41,570 nucleotides of DNA from Coriobacteriales bacterium (GTDB lineage: Bacteria; Actinomycetota; Coriobacteriia; Coriobacteriales; UBA8131), in the NCBI GenBank assembly GCA_031282405.1, contig JAITDU010000028.1, positions 1 through 41,570 on the forward strand, read 5' to 3'. A program made the translations under genes and the position numbers. A model generated the notes under the pieces. It had not been told where the DNA came from and did no database searches. It saw only the letters and a list, made by a program, of their open reading frames with translations. Shown here piece after piece: positions 492 through 8,973 of this stretch; positions within the stretch are counted from its first letter, which is position 1; each line of letters opens with the position of its first letter.

Positions 492-518
492 GTGTTACGA
501 AATTAATATTTGTGTTAC
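492..518 (+). promoter_or_regulatory. Putative operator: direct repeat GTGTTAC-N13-GTGTTAC (copy 1)
   Basis: Two exact GTGTTAC heptamers at 492-498 and 512-518 have a 20-bp period, about two helical turns, which would put both on one face of the DNA. They lie 43 bp before the GTG start of the binding-protein gene at 562. The same arrangement in the opposite orientation precedes fmdE (4535-4561). The rest of the 378-561 gap shows no further motif I recognise and no riboswitch. The binding factor is unknown. Confidence 0.6.
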
Positions 519-561
519 GATACTTCCTCCGACCCTAGGAAAAGACGAGAAGGAGAACGTA

Positions 562-1722
562 GTGAAAACACAACAGGTTTTACAAAAATGGGCCTTTGCG
601 CTTTTGGTCGCACTCTTATCTTTGTCTTTGTTTGGATTGGGCCTCGTAGGCTGTGCCGGCACAGCCGGCAGCGACAGCGGCAGCAAAAGCACCCGTGCCT
701 CCAGCGTCGACACCACAGCGACACACAGTGTTGTCGATATGCTGGGGCGGACCGTGGAGATCCCGGCTGATCTCAGTCGTGTTATCGGCCTTGGCTCCAG
801 CAGCTTGCGGATGATTGCCTATTTGGAGCAGGTTGATAAGGTTGTAGGTGTGGAGCTGGCCGAACAGGAGGACACGGTGACGTGTGCCTATCGGCATATC
901 TACCATGAACAGTTTGCCCAGCTGCCGGTAATCGGCGAGGGCGGCTCCAGAGGCGTTACTCCCAACGAGGAGGCCATCATTCAGGCGGCCCCCCAACTGA
1001 TTATCGCCAGCATCGACAAGGACAGTGCCGATGCTCTGGCCGAAAAGACCCGAATCCCCGTGCTCTGTGTGACTCTGAGTGATATCGTCTTTGATCAGGT
1101 CTTTTATGACAACATTGAATTGGTGGGCGAGGTCCTCGGCGCTGAGGATCGGGCCGACGCGATTATTACCTATGTGCAAGAGTCTCAGGCCGACTTAGAG
1201 CAACGCAGCAGTCAGGCTGGTAGTCAGCGGCCCAGTGCCTACGCGGCCGGCATCAGTTTCAGAGGTGGTCACGGCTTTGCCGGCACCGAGGCCCAATTCC
1301 CGCCCTTTGAGGCGGTACAGGTTGTGAATATTGCCGATAGTGCCGCTACTACAGGCGCCTTTGACATCGATCTGGAGCAGATCAGTGCCGCTCAGCCCGA
1401 CTACATCTTCGTCGAGAGCAGCAATTTTGCCTTGGTTAAAGAGGATTACGACAACAATCCCGGTTACTTTGCCGGGCTTGACGCTGTACAGAAAAATCAG
1501 GTCTACTCGCTGATCTCCTATCGTTTCTATGCTACCAATGTCGAGTTGGCTTTGGCCAACTGCTACCAGGTGGGTGCCCAGGCTTATCCCGAGGCTTTTG
1601 CCGATATTGACCCCACCGCGCAACTGGACAAGATTACCACCTTCTTCCTCGGTCAGGGCTTGTCTGCCGATCTGGCGGCCGAAGGCTATAGTTTTGAGCA
1701 GGTTGATTTGAGCAAACTCTGA
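562..1722 (+). CDS. ABC transporter substrate-binding lipoprotein (iron/cobalamin/metal-chelate class)
   Basis: A 386-residue secreted lipoprotein starting at GTG 562, with GAGAAGGAG just upstream. The signal peptide has a hydrophobic run at residues 11-29 and the lipobox LVGC (acylated Cys31), followed by a Ser/Gly/Thr linker to about residue 50. The body fits the BtuF/FepB-type periplasmic-binding fold: VVDMLGRTVEIP at the start, RVIGLGSSSLRMIAYLE, then PQLIIAS and AAQPDYIFVES. It should deliver substrate to the FecCD permease and ATPase encoded convergently downstream, and it shares their candidate operator. The ligand cannot be read from sequence; a metal oxyanion, metal chelate or corrinoid are all possible. 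Its last two codons and stop lie inside a repeat (1716-1738) related to the end of the ATPase gene. Confidence 0.88.
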   Translation: MKTQQVLQKWAFALLVALLSLSLFGLGLVGCAGTAGSDSGSKSTRASSVDTTATHSVVDMLGRTVEIPADLSRVIGLGSSSLRMIAYLEQVDKVVGVELAEQEDTVTCAYRHIYHEQFAQLPVIGEGGSRGVTPNEEAIIQAAPQLIIASIDKDSADALAEKTRIPVLCVTLSDIVFDQVFYDNIELVGEVLGAEDRADAIITYVQESQADLEQRSSQAGSQRPSAYAAGISFRGGHGFAGTEAQFPPFEAVQVVNIADSAATTGAFDIDLEQISAAQPDYIFVESSNFALVKEDYDNNPGYFAGLDAVQKNQVYSLISYRFYATNVELALANCYQVGAQAYPEAFADIDPTAQLDKITTFFLGQGLSADLAAEGYSFEQVDLSKL

Positions 1723-1828
1723 GTTATATGGGCACACCTATCGACGCAAACTTCGAGTGGGCCGACCACAGAATTCTGAGTTGACTGGGCATAACTGCCA
1801 TGAAAAGCCTGAGTTATTCGGGCACAAC
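1716..1828. repeat. Three degenerate 23-bp copies between convergent genes
   Basis: Related 23-mers occur at 1716-1738, 1773-1795 and 1806-1828 (periods 57 and 33). The shared core on the plus strand is CTGAGTT, four variable bases, then GGGCAYAMC. The copy at 1806-1828 holds the last codons and stop of the minus-strand ATPase (VVVPE). The copy at 1716-1738 holds the last codons and stop of the plus-strand binding protein. I see no terminator hairpin here. Confidence 0.75.
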
Positions 1829-2722
1829 CACCGGTGTGCCGTCCAAGCGGTGTACATGCAGTGGATGGCCGTAGGTAGCCATAAGGGTTTGGTCGGTTAC
1901 TGCTTCCAAACCGCCGTAGGCTACGGTTCGTCCGTCTCTGAGCAACAAAAAGTTATCACAATAGCGTAAGGCCAGATTGATGTCATGGAGGACCAGGACA
2001 GTAGCCAGAGAACTGCTGCGGGTTATCTCTTGTACTACTCCCAGTACTTCGATCTGGTTTTTAGGATCCAGGGCGCTCGTTGGCTCATCCAAGAGCAGGA
2101 TTTGTGGCTCCTGAGCCAGGGCGCGGGCAATAAAAACCTTTTGGCGTTCGCCGCCCGAGAGTTGATCCACATAACGTTGAGCAAAGCTGTTCAAGCCAAG
2201 GCGCTCGATGACTCGTGCTACCACCGTGCGGTCGTAGTCGCTGATACCCCAGGAAATGTGCGGTCGGCGGCCCAAAAGCACCTCGTTGTAGACGCTGAGG
2301 TGCGGCACGCGTTGCTGTTGGAATACACTCGCAACCTGCCGGGCTATCTCGCGTTGACTCATATCGCGCAGGTTTTTGCCGCAGATATCCACTGTGCCCG
2401 CGCTGGGTCCAAGCAAGCCGCTGAGCAAAGAAAGCAATGTGGACTTACCGGCACCATTATTGCCGAGGATGGCCAAGAGGTTGCCGCTTTGAGCTGTGAA
2501 GTTTATCTCAGAGAAGGTTGTGCGCGGAGCATGGGGGTAGCGGTAGGTCACCTGGTTGACCTTGAGAACGACCTGTTGCTGTGCGCCATGCCTATGGCTG
2601 TGCGGAGCATTTTCATACCGATGACTATGGTAGTGATTGTGCAGCGTTCCGTCGGTATGTTCATGCAGATGCGTATGTGTGCTGCCGGCATCAGCTGCGT
2701 TGCGGTCGTGCTCTTCTCTCAT
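1814..2722 (-). CDS. ABC transporter ATPase with histidine-rich N-terminus
   Basis: A 302-residue FepC/BtuD-type ATPase. Residues 1-46 are an unusual extension with 12 histidines, including HTHLHEH, HNHYHSH and HSHRH. The nucleotide-binding domain follows: Walker A GNNGAGKST at 87-95, a Q-loop at FQQQR, signature LSGGERQ, Walker B ILLLDEPTSALD and switch His in VLHDIN. ATG 2722 overlaps the permease stop by 4 bases, so translation is coupled. His-rich tails of this kind are known from metal chaperones (HypB, CobW/YjiA) and metal transporters, so metal sensing or buffering during uptake is a reasonable inference. The ATPase core is certain; the substrate is not. Confidence 0.92.
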   Translation of the reverse strand: MREEHDRNAADAGSTHTHLHEHTDGTLHNHYHSHRYENAPHSHRHGAQQQVVLKVNQVTYRYPHAPRTTFSEINFTAQSGNLLAILGNNGAGKSTLLSLLSGLLGPSAGTVDICGKNLRDMSQREIARQVASVFQQQRVPHLSVYNEVLLGRRPHISWGISDYDRTVVARVIERLGLNSFAQRYVDQLSGGERQKVFIARALAQEPQILLLDEPTSALDPKNQIEVLGVVQEITRSSSLATVLVLHDINLALRYCDNFLLLRDGRTVAYGGLEAVTDQTLMATYGHPLHVHRLDGTPVVVPE

Positions 2723-3777
2723 CTTTTATACCCCCTGAAGAGCAGATAAAGAAAAAGTGGTGCTCCTAAAAAGGAGGTAATAGCTCCGATAGGCAGGATA
2801 ACCGGCGATATGACCATGCGGGCCAAAAGGTCAGAGGCCAACAGGATAATTGAGCCCGAAACGGCTGAGGCTGGCAGGAGGAAGCGATAGTCGTTACCTA
2901 CCAAACGGCGGGAGATATGCGGGGCGATCAGGCCGATGAAGCTGATCAGGCCCACAAAAGAGACCATGGCCGCTGCCATCAGCGAGGCCATCACGACACC
3001 CAAAATTCGCGTACGTTGCACATTTACGCCCAGACCACCAGCCGCGTCACCGCCGTTAAGTAAAGCATTGTAGTTCCAACGATTAGCAAAAAAGTAGAGC
3101 GCGCAGACAAGTCCAATACCGGCCATCAGGGCAATCTGCGGCTGGGTAGCGCGCCCCAGGTCGCCAAACTGCCAAAAGATGACCTTGGTCAACTCCAGAT
3201 CGTCGGCAAAATATTGGATGATGGTTGAGGCTCCTGCCCAAAGTGACGAGAGAGCTACCCCTACAAGGATGATGCTTTCCGGGCTGGCAATGCCCAGGCG
3301 CGAAAAGAGTAACACGACCAGACACGAGACCAAGGCACCCGCAAAAGCAAAGAGAGCTACGGTGCCCAAGCCCACCGAGGTGGCGCTGCCGTTTTCTGTG
3401 ACTGCCGGAACGATAAGCAGGATGGCAATGGTTGCGCCAAAGACCGCACCCTGAGAGATGCCTACCGTCGAAGCTGAGGCCAGGGGGTTTTCCAGGACAC
3501 TTTGCAATACCGCGCCGGCCAAAGCCAACCCCGCACCGGCGATGATAGCCGTAAGCACCCGGGGCAACCGGATAGTCTGAACAGCCGTGACATTCTGGAG
3601 CTCTCCCTGCCCAAAGAGGGCAACGATACTCTCCAAGGGGTTTATAGCCATAGCTCCGCTGCAAAGCGCCAGCAAAGCTATGAGTAGGCCAATTACAATG
3701 ATGCCGCCAATCACCCACCAATTACGCCGCTCGCGTTGACGGGCCTCCTGAGCGATGGACAGGGTGTTGTCAAGCAC
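2719..3777 (-). CDS. FecCD-family ABC transporter permease
   Basis: A 352-residue integral membrane protein with about ten hydrophobic segments, beginning after a short basic N-terminus (RQRERRNWW). FecCD hallmarks are visible: LPRVLTAIIAGAGLALAGAV near residue 70, the LENPLASASTVG region, and SFVGLISFIGLIAPHISR near residue 290, which carries the cytoplasmic coupling helix contacting the ATPase. It starts 2 bases after the fmdE stop and overlaps the ATPase start by 4 bases, so fmdE, permease and ATPase form one transcript. Members of this family move siderophores, haem, cobalamin, and in MolB-type branches molybdate or tungstate. Confidence 0.93.
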   Translation of the reverse strand: MLDNTLSIAQEARQRERRNWWVIGGIIVIGLLIALLALCSGAMAINPLESIVALFGQGELQNVTAVQTIRLPRVLTAIIAGAGLALAGAVLQSVLENPLASASTVGISQGAVFGATIAILLIVPAVTENGSATSVGLGTVALFAFAGALVSCLVVLLFSRLGIASPESIILVGVALSSLWAGASTIIQYFADDLELTKVIFWQFGDLGRATQPQIALMAGIGLVCALYFFANRWNYNALLNGGDAAGGLGVNVQRTRILGVVMASLMAAAMVSFVGLISFIGLIAPHISRRLVGNDYRFLLPASAVSGSIILLASDLLARMVISPVILPIGAITSFLGAPLFLYLLFRGYKR

Positions 3778-3779
3778 CG

Positions 3780-4436
3780 CTAAAAGCCTTCGCGATCATA
3801 ACCCTCATAGCAGTCCAAGCAAAGCAGACGATCTTGGTCCACCCGCAGGAAAGGCTCGGCTGTCTTCTCACCACAGACCACACAAGGATGCGAGGCAAAG
3901 AGTCGCGCTGTCTGGGGCAGTATATAATCCGGCGTGCTGATATCAAACAGCTGCGTATGCGGCGTGGCGAGAAGGTAGTGTTGGAACTCGGCCCGCTCCA
4001 ATCCTTGGCCTGCTTCGGGTTTTAGGCAGAGACGTACCGCTTGAAGGGGAGATGTGACTTTTTTGTCGATGCTCGTGGCCACTTCGCCGATGACTGCGGC
4101 GGCCTTGCCGATGGCTGCGGCTTGGTTGGGTGCTGCGGCTCCCGAAGTGGGGCCTTGACGCGGACGAGTGAAAAAAGAAAAAGCCATCTTGCCACGCAGA
4201 CGCGGCACGAGATTAGCCTTACCATAGGTACAGCCTAAAACCGTCTGGATGGCATCAACACCACAGGCATCGTTTTCGGTTACGCAGACGATCTCTTCGT
4301 CTGTGGCCGGCAGTCGGCTGGCATCTAACCCCAACTCGGCAATAGCCCCCAGCGATGCCGCAAAGCCAATAGCCAAGCCGGGGCATTGGTGTCCGTGAAA
4401 GGCCACTGCCTTGTGCCAGAGTTCTTCATTGTTCAT
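3780..4436 (-). CDS. FmdE family protein
   Basis: A 218-residue protein. The start is ATG 4436, chosen because AAGGAG (4443-4448 on the opposite strand) sits 6 bases before it and the family motif begins soon after; the frame continues upstream to 4541 without support. FmdE motifs are HGHQCPG (residues 14-20) and TENDACGVDAIQ followed by GCTYGKANL. A C-terminal zinc-finger-like module has CVVCG and, 18 residues later, CLDC. FmdE is named from the molybdenum formylmethanofuran dehydrogenase operon, but bacterial members often sit beside FecCD-type transporters. Being first in this operon, it may handle the imported metal or cofactor; the exact reaction is not known. Confidence 0.88.
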   Translation of the reverse strand: MNNEELWHKAVAFHGHQCPGLAIGFAASLGAIAELGLDASRLPATDEEIVCVTENDACGVDAIQTVLGCTYGKANLVPRLRGKMAFSFFTRPRQGPTSGAAAPNQAAAIGKAAAVIGEVATSIDKKVTSPLQAVRLCLKPEAGQGLERAEFQHYLLATPHTQLFDISTPDYILPQTARLFASHPCVVCGEKTAEPFLRVDQDRLLCLDCYEGYDREGF

Positions 4437-4439
4437 TGT

Positions 4440-4533
4440 GTGCTCCTTGTAGGTAAGGGGTAGTCGATCATGTACGCACTTGAAATCTGCGATTATGCGT
4501 GTGCTCCTTGCAATTAAGGGGCAGTCGCACAAT
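4440..4533 (-). repeat. Duplicated fmdE leader including its ribosome-binding site (period 61)
   Basis: Bases 4440-4471 and 4501-4532 are imperfect direct repeats. Both begin GTGCTCCTTG on the plus strand and share AAGGGG and AGTCG. Read on the minus strand, each copy carries AAGGAG, but only the one next to 4436 is followed by a start codon; the upstream copy reads CACACGCATAATCG after the site. The upstream copy is therefore a decoy or fossil ribosome-binding site in the fmdE leader. Confidence 0.7.
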
Positions 4534-4534
4534 G

Positions 4535-4561
4535 GTAACACAATTGCAAGATTTGTAACAC
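4535..4561 (-). promoter_or_regulatory. Putative operator: direct repeat GTGTTAC-N13-GTGTTAC (copy 2)
   Basis: On the minus strand two exact GTGTTAC heptamers lie at 4561-4555 and 4541-4535 with a 20-bp period, identical in sequence and spacing to the site at 492-518. The site is about 100 bp before the fmdE start and reads in the same direction relative to its gene. Matching sites before both convergent transcription units argue for joint regulation. Confidence 0.6.
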
Positions 4562-4653: not shown

Positions 4654-4702
4654 AGAGCTTTATTGCAACCGACGCAAAAAAGCAGACAGGAAGGTGACAA
4701 GA

Positions 4703-4951
4703 ATGGCCGCAATGACCGCGCGCGAGTTCAATCAATATACCGGCAGGGCCAAAACGTTGGCTCATGAGGAGCCCGTTTTTATCACCGAACGGGGCACGGT
4801 CAAGTACGTGCTGCTGAACATTGAGGAGTACGAAGCGCTGACCCAACCTACGCGCACGCTCTTTGAGTCCCTGGCAATGGACGAACGCGATTATTTTGAG
4901 TATGAGTTCCCCCGTCTTGAGGGCGATTTCAGAGAGGTCGACTTCTCATGA
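4703..4951 (+). CDS. Phd/YefM-family antitoxin
   Basis: An 82-residue antitoxin. ATG 4703 is chosen over the in-frame GTG 4694 because AGGAAGG (4688-4694) overlaps that GTG and is ideally spaced for the ATG. The N-terminal half has the Phd/YefM DNA-binding pattern (TAREFNQYTGRAK, then PVFITERGTVKYVLLNIEEYE). The acidic C-terminal tail (MDERDYFEYEFPRLEGDF) would thread into the toxin. It ends in a 4-base ATGA overlap with the toxin gene, as usual for type II pairs, and probably represses the promoter at 4632-4653. Confidence 0.88.
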   Translation: MAAMTAREFNQYTGRAKTLAHEEPVFITERGTVKYVLLNIEEYEALTQPTRTLFESLAMDERDYFEYEFPRLEGDFREVDFS

Positions 4952-5403
4952 CCGGTTATCTGCTCAACACAAATATTGTAAGCGAGCTGCGCAAGCCGCC
5001 GGCGCGTCGTCCCGTTCTCATCAACACCTGGGCACAGGAATTGAGTGAGCAACAGGCTTACCTCAGCGTCATAACGATTGTTGAGATAGAGCGTGGGCTC
5101 TTGTTGCTGGAACGAAAGGATGCCGCACAGGCACAGCCTTTACGCCGATGGTTTGAGAGAGACATCCTGGAGGGCTATGCGGAGCGTATTCTCCCTTTGA
5201 GCCTCAAAGCCGCACGCCGTGCCGCCGCCCTCCAGGTGCTCAACCCTCGGCCGCTGGTCGACACATTCATTGCCGCTACAGCGCTGGAGCATAACCTCAC
5301 GCTTGTAACCCGTAATGTAAAGGACTTTCACGACACCGGCGTGCGCGTTACGAACCCGTGGGAGCCACATATCACGACCGTTACGCTGGACATCCCTCGC
5401 TAG
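4948..5403 (+). CDS. VapC/FitB-type PIN-domain toxin with Asn at the first acidic position
   Basis: A 151-residue PIN-domain protein coupled to the antitoxin. Family landmarks are YLLNTNIVSELRKP at residues 4-17, Glu46 in TIVEIERG, Asp105 in PLVDTFIAATALEH, and TRNVKDF at 121-127. PIN nucleases normally have Asp in the first motif (LLDTN); here codon 7 is AAC (Asn), one transition from GAC. That Asp helps bind the catalytic metal, so the toxin may be weak or inactive, although the rest of the active site is intact. The length is normal. Confidence 0.88.
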   Translation: MTGYLLNTNIVSELRKPPARRPVLINTWAQELSEQQAYLSVITIVEIERGLLLLERKDAAQAQPLRRWFERDILEGYAERILPLSLKAARRAAALQVLNPRPLVDTFIAATALEHNLTLVTRNVKDFHDTGVRVTNPWEPHITTVTLDIPR

Positions 5404-5405
5404 AA

Positions 5406-5564
5406 GTATTTAACCGGGCAGGCCGTCTCCCTCACAACCAGTAAGCGTATGTGCTATGAGGCGTATTTGGTCGGGCAGGCCGTCTCGCACGCAGGCATAA
5501 CAGGGGCGCTTCCTTCCCGCAGGCCGTCTTTCTCGCCCCCCTATAAGGTGCTGATGCCGTATTT
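5406..5564. repeat. Degenerate repeat units downstream of the ECF S-component gene
   Basis: GCAGGCCGTCT occurs three times (starting at 5418, 5475 and 5519). GTATTT precedes two of them (5406 and 5463) and recurs inside the S-component 3' end (5559-5564). On the minus strand the S-component tail, AAATACGGCATCAGCAC, is echoed downstream as AAATACGCCTCATAGCAC. This fills the convergent gap after vapC. A GGGGCG/CGCCCC pair with a 25-nt loop (about 5503-5540) could form a weak terminator. Confidence 0.65.
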
Positions 5565-6278
5565 GTATTTGAGACGTTTGAGTTTGTGGGTCCAGGGCAG
5601 GTAAATGGGCACGAGGAAAATCACCGTGGCAACCGCGTGTGCCAGCGAGGACAGTGCCCCAAGTCCATAGGCCGTAAGCACCGATGCCGTGTTTATCTCG
5701 CCCAGGTACCCCACGACGAAGTAGCTATCCATAATCACGCCGTAGAGCAGAGGCGCTAAAGCGGCGTAGACAAAAACAATCGCCTTGTGCTTGAAGGCTC
5801 CGTGGTCCTCCAGCACGCCGGCACCATAACCCATAAGTCCCCAGGCATACATCTGCCACGGTGTCCAAGGGCCCTGACCAAAAAACAGGTTGGAGACCAG
5901 GGCCGCCAGAGCACCCACCATAAAACCGCTGTGTCGGCCAAAGCTCAAACCGGCCATAATCACGATGGCCGAGACCGGCTTGATATTGGGCAGTGGCGCA
6001 AAGACGATGCGTCCGGCCACCGCCAGCGTGGCAAAGACCACAATAGGCATGATGTCGCGGGGTGTCAGCCGGTCTAACTCAAGGTTGACAAAAAAAGGGA
6101 CAAGGGCAACCAGCACACTGAGTGTACTGATGAGGGCGGTTTGCTGCATACCACTGAGAGCACAGGCTATGAGCACCACGGGGACCGACAGCAGAGCCAC
6201 GGCATCCACGGCGCTTCGATGCCCGCCGCGTTTGCGTCCAGCTGTGTTGCGCTGTTTGTGTTCAATCGCGCCACTCAT
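5541..6278 (-). CDS. ECF transporter S component (probable cobalamin/corrinoid specificity)
   Basis: A 245-residue membrane protein, last gene of the riboswitch-controlled operon. After a basic cytoplasmic N-terminus (to about residue 22) there are about six hydrophobic segments. The stretch AGRIVFAPLPNIKPVSAIVI followed by GRHSGFMVGALAALVSN and FGQGPWTPWQM is typical of ECF substrate-binding subunits of the group found with DUF4430 proteins. The C-terminus is basic (LKRLKYKYG). Its start overlaps the ATPase stop by 4 bases. Cobalamin specificity is inferred from the upstream riboswitch and the transcobalamin-like partners, not from residues. Confidence 0.88.
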   Translation of the reverse strand: MSGAIEHKQRNTAGRKRGGHRSAVDAVALLSVPVVLIACALSGMQQTALISTLSVLVALVPFFVNLELDRLTPRDIMPIVVFATLAVAGRIVFAPLPNIKPVSAIVIMAGLSFGRHSGFMVGALAALVSNLFFGQGPWTPWQMYAWGLMGYGAGVLEDHGAFKHKAIVFVYAALAPLLYGVIMDSYFVVGYLGEINTASVLTAYGLGALSSLAHAVATVIFLVPIYLPWTHKLKRLKYKYGISTL

Positions 6279-7993
6279 GTCGTTATTCCCCGGGTAAGCC
6301 GCTGGGCGGCGGTGGTGTAGAACATGGTGCTGGCAAAGAAGTTTGCTGTGCTGTCCGCGCCTATCAAGGTACCGTCAAACAGCATGACACAGCGCTCGGC
6401 ACAGCGGGAGACAAACTCCAGGTCGTGGCTGACCAAGACGATGGCACAGCCCGACTGGCGCTGTTCATCCAAGATAGCTGCCAGGTCGCGCTGAGCAAAG
6501 GTATCGATGCCCTTTGTGGGCTCGTCTAAGAGCAGTAGATTCGCGCCGGTAAGCACAAGCTTGGCCAGTGCTGCCTTTTGCTGTTCGCCGCCGCTGAGGT
6601 CGAAGGGGTGTGTATCCACATAGCAGCTCAACTCCAGACGCTCTAACAAGGCCAGAGCCTCGGCGCGGGTAAAGCCAAAGCGCGGCGCAAAGCTCATAAC
6701 GTCATCGAGCAGCGTGTCTCGCAGGAATAACGTCGTGGAATCCTGCGGCAATGCCGCCCGTTTAAGCCCAGCAGCGCTGCGGATACGGCCATGCTGTGGT
6801 GTGCTCACACCGGCCAGCAGGTTGAGCAGCGTGCTTTTACCGCTGCCATTTCCGCCGACGATGCCGAGGATCTGCCCCGCTGCGACATCCAGACTCAGCT
6901 CGCGCAGGACGTACGGCTCGTCGCGATCGTAGCGATACCAGATGCGCTGGGCGCTGAGCACAGGCTCTCTTAGGTCGGTTAGCCGGGTAGTTTGAGCAGG
7001 TCCAACTGTCTTTTGAGAGGGCGGTTCATCCAAACCGGACGCGGCACTATGCCGGCGTAGCCACTGGCGCCCCTCCTTAACATCTAACGGCCACACGTCG
7101 TCCTCAGTGTGGTTGCTGTGTTGCGTGTTCTCTAATGCCAGGCGGGTAGCGTAGGGCAGTGCGGTCACAAAGGGGCTGGTAGTCCGGGCCAGATAACTTA
7201 TGAACTCCTGGGGAGAACCACAAAGCGCAAGCCTGCCTTCCTGGAGGAACAGCACGAGGTCGCTCGCCGACAGAACTTCTTCGATCTGATGCTCAATGAT
7301 GATGACGGTTATACCTAACTCCTCATTGACACGCTGCAGCAGTGCCGTAAAATCCTTTGAGGCAATGGGGTCAAGCTGTGCCGTAGGTTCATCCAGCAAC
7401 AGGAGTTTAGGCTGCATGGCAATAACAGCTGCCAGATTGACCACCTGCTTTTGCCCTGCCGAGAGCGCGTCGGTGCTCTTATCGAGCCAGGTATTAATGC
7501 CAAAAAAATTAGCAATTTCTGCGATGCGTCGGTGAATGGCCTCAGGAGCAACACTGAGGTTCTCCAGGCCAAAGGCCAACTCGGCACGGACGTTGTCCAT
7601 GACGATTTGTTGATGTGGGTCCTGCAACACAAAGCCGATGGCACTGGCCGACTGCTGCGGGTCAAGTTCATCAACACTCTCACCTTCCAACGCTACGCTG
7701 CCGCTGAACGCGCCAGAGGGACGCAACTCAGGCTTGAGGCAGCGCAAAAGCGTGCTTTTGCCCGAGCCGGTCATTCCACAGAGCAGCACACGCTGGCCAG
7801 CCGTGACGCCAAACGAGATGTCAGTCAGCGCGAGTGCTGACTCCGCCCGGGGCGTGCCTCCGGATTCCTCCTGGGGCTTTACTTGAGGTGTGCCTCCGGA
7901 CTTAACTCCGGGCTTCTCCCCCTGTTCTGTCGTTGTGACAGCATTTCCGCCCGGGTAAGCAAAACTCAGGCCCGTGACCGTGACAGCGTCCAT
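6275..7993 (-). CDS. ECF transporter energizing module, fused EcfA1-EcfA2 ATPases
   Basis: A 572-residue protein with two complete ABC ATPase domains. Domain 1 has Walker A GMTGSGKST (73-81), signature LSAGQKQ (about 173) and Walker B LLLLDEPTAQLD (about 196). Domain 2 has Walker A GGNGSGKST (about 376), signature LSGGEQQK and Walker B LLLLDEPTKGID. Residues 20-52 interrupt the first strands of domain 1 with a low-complexity insert containing SGGTP twice; the DNA shows an 11-base repeat (GTGCCTCCGGA, period about 34). ATG 7993 has AGGAGGTGAG upstream and lies inside the end of the ecfT gene (28-bp overlap). Confidence 0.95.
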   Translation of the reverse strand: MDAVTVTGLSFAYPGGNAVTTTEQGEKPGVKSGGTPQVKPQEESGGTPRAESALALTDISFGVTAGQRVLLCGMTGSGKSTLLRCLKPELRPSGAFSGSVALEGESVDELDPQQSASAIGFVLQDPHQQIVMDNVRAELAFGLENLSVAPEAIHRRIAEIANFFGINTWLDKSTDALSAGQKQVVNLAAVIAMQPKLLLLDEPTAQLDPIASKDFTALLQRVNEELGITVIIIEHQIEEVLSASDLVLFLQEGRLALCGSPQEFISYLARTTSPFVTALPYATRLALENTQHSNHTEDDVWPLDVKEGRQWLRRHSAASGLDEPPSQKTVGPAQTTRLTDLREPVLSAQRIWYRYDRDEPYVLRELSLDVAAGQILGIVGGNGSGKSTLLNLLAGVSTPQHGRIRSAAGLKRAALPQDSTTLFLRDTLLDDVMSFAPRFGFTRAEALALLERLELSCYVDTHPFDLSGGEQQKAALAKLVLTGANLLLLDEPTKGIDTFAQRDLAAILDEQRQSGCAIVLVSHDLEFVSRCAERCVMLFDGTLIGADSTANFFASTMFYTTAAQRLTRGITT

Positions 7994-8973
7994 GCCAGGC
8001 GCTCACCTCCTGCGAGGACGAAGGGGAAAAGGCAGAACACAGCGTAGGGCACATAGACCCACCAGGCCGAAAGCCCTGTGAGGTAGGGATAAAACGCGAA
8101 CTGGCCGCCATAGACTAACATGAACGCGCCGCTGAGGCAGCCGAGCAGAATGATCGTAGCCAGTGCGACTACATCGGGCCTCGTCAGGCGCATCGGCCGG
8201 TAACTGGAACGTTGCGTACTGCCAAAGCCGCGTGCGCGCATTGAATCGGCGGTGACCAGCGATTTTTCCATGCCCCATTCCATCATCTGTGAGGAGAGCG
8301 CTGAGGCATACCGGAGCTTTTGATACAGCGAAGTGCGAGAGCTTCGTGACTGTGTGGTGCCTGGGGTGCCGGGAGCTCCTGGAGTATCTGGGGTGCTTGT
8401 GCCACGTGGAACATCTGGGGTGTCTGGGGCATCTATAACGTTCGCCTCTGCCTGCTTGCTCAGCGCCGAGGTGCCCAGAGCTGTCTGGGCGTTATTGACC
8501 TGTCGAGCATGGGAGACAAGCTCGGGCACGAATACGGTTATCCGCGCGGTTATCAAAGCGGCGGTCGGCGCGACGCGCGAGAATAGCGCCAAAAACCCCT
8601 GACGCGACATCAGCCGGTTGTACGCCTGAAACCACACCAGTACACTGGCAAGCATCAATCCGGAACAACAACCGTACACAAGCGACTCCAGTGTGATAGG
8701 TAACCCACCCGCTCCGCCCAGGTAGAACAGTACGGTCAGGCCACTTGTGGAAAACAGCGCGTTGGTCGCGGTCACGATGATTACGAGTAGCAAAAGCCAC
8801 CAGGAAGCCCGCACAAAGGCCGCGGCCCCACGTACAGCCAGGGCCACCGCACAACTACCCAGCATGCCGATAATCCTGAATACGGGCTCTAAGCTAAGAA
8901 AGCACAGCGTTATCATCGCCATAAAAAAGACAAAGGCAACGGCGGGGTGATAATCGCGCAGTACCGACAGCAT
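7966..8973 (-). CDS. ecfT: ECF transporter transmembrane component EcfT
   Basis: A 335-residue T component. Hydrophobic segments occupy the first 130 residues (AFVFFMAMITLCFLSLEPVF onward) and the C-terminal third. The coupling-helix motif SMRARGFG, which contacts the ATPases, lies near residues 244-251. Between them, around residues 176-205, is an insert made of PDTPDVP and TPDTPGAPGTPG repeats that conserved EcfT proteins lack, in a cytoplasmic loop. No strong ribosome-binding site precedes ATG 8973. The 8974-9160 gap upstream holds an echo of the preceding gene's 3' end. Confidence 0.9.
   Translation of the reverse strand: MLSVLRDYHPAVAFVFFMAMITLCFLSLEPVFRIIGMLGSCAVALAVRGAAAFVRASWWLLLLVIIVTATNALFSTSGLTVLFYLGGAGGLPITLESLVYGCCSGLMLASVLVWFQAYNRLMSRQGFLALFSRVAPTAALITARITVFVPELVSHARQVNNAQTALGTSALSKQAEANVIDAPDTPDVPRGTSTPDTPGAPGTPGTTQSRSSRTSLYQKLRYASALSSQMMEWGMEKSLVTADSMRARGFGSTQRSSYRPMRLTRPDVVALATIILLGCLSGAFMLVYGGQFAFYPYLTGLSAWWVYVPYAVFCLFPFVLAGGERLAWTLSRSRA

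Follow-up and report, generated by a model that had tools for sequence, protein, structure and literature searches.

NikR is a tetramer in which each of two ribbon-helix-helix (RHH) dimers fills the major groove of one half-site of its operator (PMC4486848). For the delta-proteobacteria, a NikR signal of the form GTGTTAC-N13/14-GTAACAC has been proposed, and reversed half-sites are already noted there (PMC545781). The Helicobacter pylori consensus is composed of the pentamers TRTTA and TAWTA (TRTTA-N15-TAWTA), the centres of which lie 20 nt apart, and comes near to a TRWYA dyad (PMC5385501). FmdE proteins owe their name to a molybdenum enzyme operon, and most of their genes are adjoined by metal-ion transporters; the structure of a Desulfitobacterium homologue contains mixed zinc/nickel in a His/His/Cys/Cys site, and FmdE proteins with zinc fingers have been floated as possible regulators (PMC2954224).

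Here we describe a pair of operator-like sites placed before the two units of a split transporter in a contig of 41,570 nt from a Coriobacteriales draft genome, the whole of which is referred to as the window. Judged by sequence comparison, both sites are very probably NikR operators, at which nickel-loaded NikR would repress a predicted nickel importer consisting of a Peripla_BP_2 binding protein, FmdE, a FecCD permease, and an ABC ATPase. Two copies of the pattern GTGTTAC-N13-GTGTTAC, and no more, are present in the window, at 492-518 (+) and 4561-4535 (-), and 100 dinucleotide-preserving shuffles contained none; this bears out the preliminary description of two exact pairs of equal period, each in front of a unit of the same transporter. 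In both sites the heptamers form direct rather than inverted repeats, with a 20-bp period in a 27-bp frame, and TRWYA fits both halves of each. The first site (492..518, plus strand; GTGTTAC-GAAATTAATATTT-GTGTTAC) lies 44 bp upstream of the GTG start (562) of the Peripla_BP_2 lipoprotein gene and has orthologous counterparts upstream of the same gene in relatives, and the second (4535..4561, minus strand; GTGTTAC-AAATCTTGCAATT-GTGTTAC) lies 99 bp upstream of the ATG (4436) of the fmdE-fecCD-ABC ATPase unit. A sigma-70 promoter scan gave nothing above chance at either site.

When the draft genome (2.0 Mb) was scanned with up to one mismatch allowed, as the preliminary description had proposed, only these two sites were returned. 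It is important to note that a reversed control pattern also gave two matches in the same genome at the one-mismatch level, so the bare number of sites carries little weight, and the case for them is built on exactness, position, and conservation. Six further matches with two mismatches were dismissed as chance occurrences, their number being at control level. At the very end of the contig (window 1-28), CTTTCCCTACACGACGCTCTTCCGATCT resembles what is presumably leftover Illumina adapter.

The gene behind the first site (562..1722, plus strand) encodes a Fec/Btu-type solute-binding lipoprotein (Pfam PF01497, E 7e-20), a predicted binder of nickel or a nickel chelate. The unit behind the second site is encoded on the minus strand and comprises an FmdE-domain protein with a C-terminal zinc ribbon (3780..4436; PF02663, PF01258, and alignment), a FecCD-family permease (2719..3777; PF01032, E 6e-83), and, as its third gene, an ABC transporter ATPase with a His-rich N-terminus evident from the translation (1814..2722; PF00005). 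All parts of a Fec/Btu-type ABC importer plus FmdE are therefore present: binding protein, FecCD permease, ATPase, and, in the window FmdE, the metal site His14/His16/Cys18/Cys58, retained in an alignment (site as defined in PMC2954224). When the proteins of the Fec-type system were compared with NCBIfam, models of the iron/B12 type were matched, none of them above cut-off.

Several further features surround this locus. The leader before fmdE (window 4431-4530) contains, at a distance of about 60 bp from each other, two similar copies of a stretch that ends in AAGGAGCACAC, such that the ribosome-binding region appears to be duplicated. A Phd/YefM antitoxin and PIN toxin pair (window 4694-5403) adjoins the fmdE operator, and a single operon at window 5541-8973 encodes an ECF-type S component, a double ATPase, and a probable T component.

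When 148 relatives were searched for the frame irrespective of heptamer direction, with at most one mismatch allowed, 40 genomes gave matches, 48 sites in all, and the control matched in one genome; in sampled members of the phylum outside Coriobacteriales, two matches were obtained in 184 genomes, both weak. The consensus from 31 related sites is GTGTTACGAAtttnaaaTTCGTGTTAC. The preliminary description held that the spacers share little, a statement that needs correction: in the relatives taken together the consensus spacer reads GAAtttnaaaTTC, which is palindromic, and the window copies retain this palindrome only in part. With this palindromic spacer, the whole site in Coriobacteriales relatives becomes a dyad, GTnnnACGAA-N7-TTCGTnnnAC, with GTT or AAC as centre triplets on either side. 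The 27-bp frame (GTnnnACGA-N9-TCGTnnnAC) is constant whether the heptamers are convergent, divergent, or direct, and spacers of 8, 10, or 11 gave no frame matches in the loci examined.

Heptamer direction varies even at orthologous promoters. The window, Eggerthella, and Paraeggerthella have direct heptamers, Gordonibacter (GTATTACGAATACTAGAATCGTAATAC) and genomes G016 and G026 have convergent ones, and G011 is mixed, with a divergent site at fmdE and a convergent one at the binding-protein gene. Among the 48 frame sites, 23 are convergent, 20 direct, 3 divergent, and 2 unclear; with related genomes and different gene classes pooled, the 23/20/3 counts are compatible with independent orientation of the half-sites (chi2 0.24). 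These data bear on the proposal of an undescribed regulator, distinct from NikR, that would bind true direct repeats side by side. While the exact direct repeats of the window and of Eggerthella-type relatives are what such a protein would call for, convergent and divergent heptamers at orthologous promoters, an unchanged 27-bp frame, a palindromic spacer, and a frame that matches NikR operators make it highly improbable. Of the preliminary description, then, the idea of a single regulator very probably holds, but not its undescribed status, given the NikR-type frame and the co-occurrence of NikR (see below), and the direct repeat on which side-by-side binding had been founded is not an essential geometry.

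Conservation was also approached from the genes. Fourteen Coriobacteriia fmdE orthologues were identified from protein sequence alone. The extended frame, with up to 3 mismatches allowed, lies within 300 bp upstream of 12 of them, compared with 2 of 840 shuffled controls; the remaining two show no frame match over that distance. Sites upstream of orthologous fmdE and binding-protein genes, the absence of which had been named as grounds for doubt, were thus found. Eggerthella sinensis, two genomes of Paraeggerthella hongkongensis, and the Coriobacteriales MAG Im510_bin61 have the same split system, with each of its two units again preceded by a site. None of 63 FmdE loci from other phyla (chiefly Clostridia) has the frame at up to 3 mismatches, indicating that the link between site and fmdE does not extend to those relatives of FmdE. 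Some promoters, in G135, G006, and Paraeggerthella, have at least two sites, and binding through multiple sites per promoter might be cooperative. Upstream of a NikA-like gene (L105 6316-6382), four heptamers with a regular 20-bp period form three overlapping operator-like pairs.

Transport genes of the NikA-like, NikM(N), or Fec-type/FmdE kind, assigned by homology only, follow about 40 of the 48 frame sites. NikA-like SBP_bac_5 genes lie behind 21 sites, CbiM-PDGLE (NikMN-type) genes behind 10, and a Fec-type binding protein or FmdE behind 9; for three SBP_bac_5 proteins checked against NCBIfam, the best model was nickel_nikA, below cut-off. Other genes were also encountered. A methyltransferase gene is first in an apparent peptide/nickel-type ABC transporter operon with a direct-type site upstream (L106 2063-6364), possibly a metallophore system, and perfect frame sites GTATTACGA...TCGTAATAC (L232 5308-5334, L233 5546-5572) precede a conserved 139-aa protein that had no Pfam match.

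Because its regulon also contains NikA- and NikM-like genes, we predict that the Peripla_BP_2/FmdE/FecCD/ABC system takes up nickel or a nickel chelate. NikR might instead control units the cargo of which is another metal or chelate (cobalt, corrinoid, molybdate/tungstate), as the Fec/Btu kind of the transporter and the molybdenum-enzyme origin of the FmdE name could suggest; we regard this as unlikely, given that the other genes preceded by this operator resemble NikA and NikM genes and that the site with mixed zinc/nickel in one FmdE structure is conserved in the window FmdE. The expectation that a scan would lead to metal, molybdenum/tungsten, or corrinoid genes together with a regulator was accordingly realized in part, in that NikA- and NikM-like transport genes and co-occurring NikR were recovered, with nickel likelier than molybdenum, tungsten, or corrinoid. 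The tungstate regulator TunR was considered as a source of the motif and set aside after a literature search without a match. Regulation of the operons by FmdE itself, via its zinc finger, would agree with the role suggested for zinc-finger FmdE proteins (PMC2954224), but is barely credible when many genomes in which no close fmdE orthologue was found have the same sites before NikA-like and NikM genes; a search of the literature on FmdE regulators produced nothing useful.

The window's genome encodes a single NikR (G000:C2:25714-25941, E 1e-29), which scores above the NCBIfam NikR equivalog cut-off and can be aligned over its whole length to the solved NikRs 2bj1 and 2ca9. As in other members of the family, an RHH domain is combined with a NikR_C domain in which the His/Cys nickel ligands are conserved (HVH and Cys, in the C-terminal metal-binding domain), and the beta-strand reads R-F-S-V. 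The nikR gene, near which no frame site was found, lies immediately upstream of hypF, a call made by recognizing HypF-type carbamoyltransferase features by eye in the sequence rather than by a family search, and the genome also encodes a [NiFe]-hydrogenase. In genus g35, the genomes of which are without the operator frame, nikR is likewise directly upstream of a hypF-like gene (L258 3875-6888).

Across the relatives, NikR (PF08753) was detected in 39 of 40 site-bearing genomes versus 63 of 108 site-less ones, counts that ignore shared ancestry; the one site-bearing genome in which it was not detected, G029, is 61% complete. Family f5 has no frame sites, and NikR was not found in most of its listed members, whereas in genus g35 (family f10) NikR is present and frame sites are absent. 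Given the many NikR-bearing genomes without sites, such as those of g35, NikR alone does not predict the site.

In the mechanism that we propose, the nickel-loaded NikR tetramer would insert its two RHH dimers into the major groove at both heptamers, which, at a distance of 20 bp (two turns), would bring both dimers to the same face of the DNA. When nickel is plentiful, NikR would shut off both transporter units, and FmdE would serve as an accessory metal-binding protein of the importer. The core GTnnnAC is its own reverse complement, making GTGTTAC a pseudo-palindrome (GT-nnn-AC), and an RHH dimer, being locally two-fold symmetric, could read the heptamer (GTGTTAC or GTAACAC) either way. We infer from this self-complementarity and symmetry that either half-site direction is acceptable, which would explain convergent, direct, and divergent pairs in one fixed frame and would turn the direct repeat and the classic inverted repeat into two forms of one operator. 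On balance, we lean towards half-sites that are orientation-neutral and have been flipped freely by evolution at orthologous promoters, with the FmdE/Fec-type system as a distinct class of nickel importer. These results offer a probable regulator and metal for a transporter whose FmdE name hints at molybdenum, predict a nickel regulon across Coriobacteriales (Eggerthella, Gordonibacter, and relatives), and provide in the flipped operators a natural set for asking whether NikR reads half-site direction.

Compared with published NikR operators, the window sites have half-site centres spaced within the reported 20-21 bp and half-sites that match both GTGTTAC (PMC545781) and TRWYA (PMC5385501). 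As for inverted repetition, the window heptamers are not inverted, but the GTnnnACGA/TCGTnnnAC dyad is, and some orthologous promoters are convergent. The delta-proteobacterial operators share the heptamer, the N13 spacing, and a position before nickel transport operons, and differ in that the available part of that report contains convergent or divergent pairs only, with direct pairing and a Coriobacteriales regulon absent from it (PMC545781). H. pylori NikR operators have the same 20 bp between half-site centres, and the TGTTA of the window is compatible with TRTTA, whereas the H. pylori consensus is A/T-rich and weak and its regulon pleiotropic (PMC5385501). The Escherichia coli nikA site (GTATGACGAATACTTAAAATCGTCATAC), read as GT-ATG-ACGA-N10-TCGT-CAT-AC, fits the GTnnnACGA...TCGTnnnAC frame, and the E. 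coli operator (GTATGA-N16-TCATAC) similarly has dimers two turns apart and stands before a nickel binding-protein gene; it differs in its length of 28 rather than 27 bp, in centre triplets ATG/CAT that are not of the RWY type, and in its inverted orientation. The window sites are best explained by a regulator and a motif that are already known in kind, and what would be new is the direction-neutral half-site and the assignment of the transporter.
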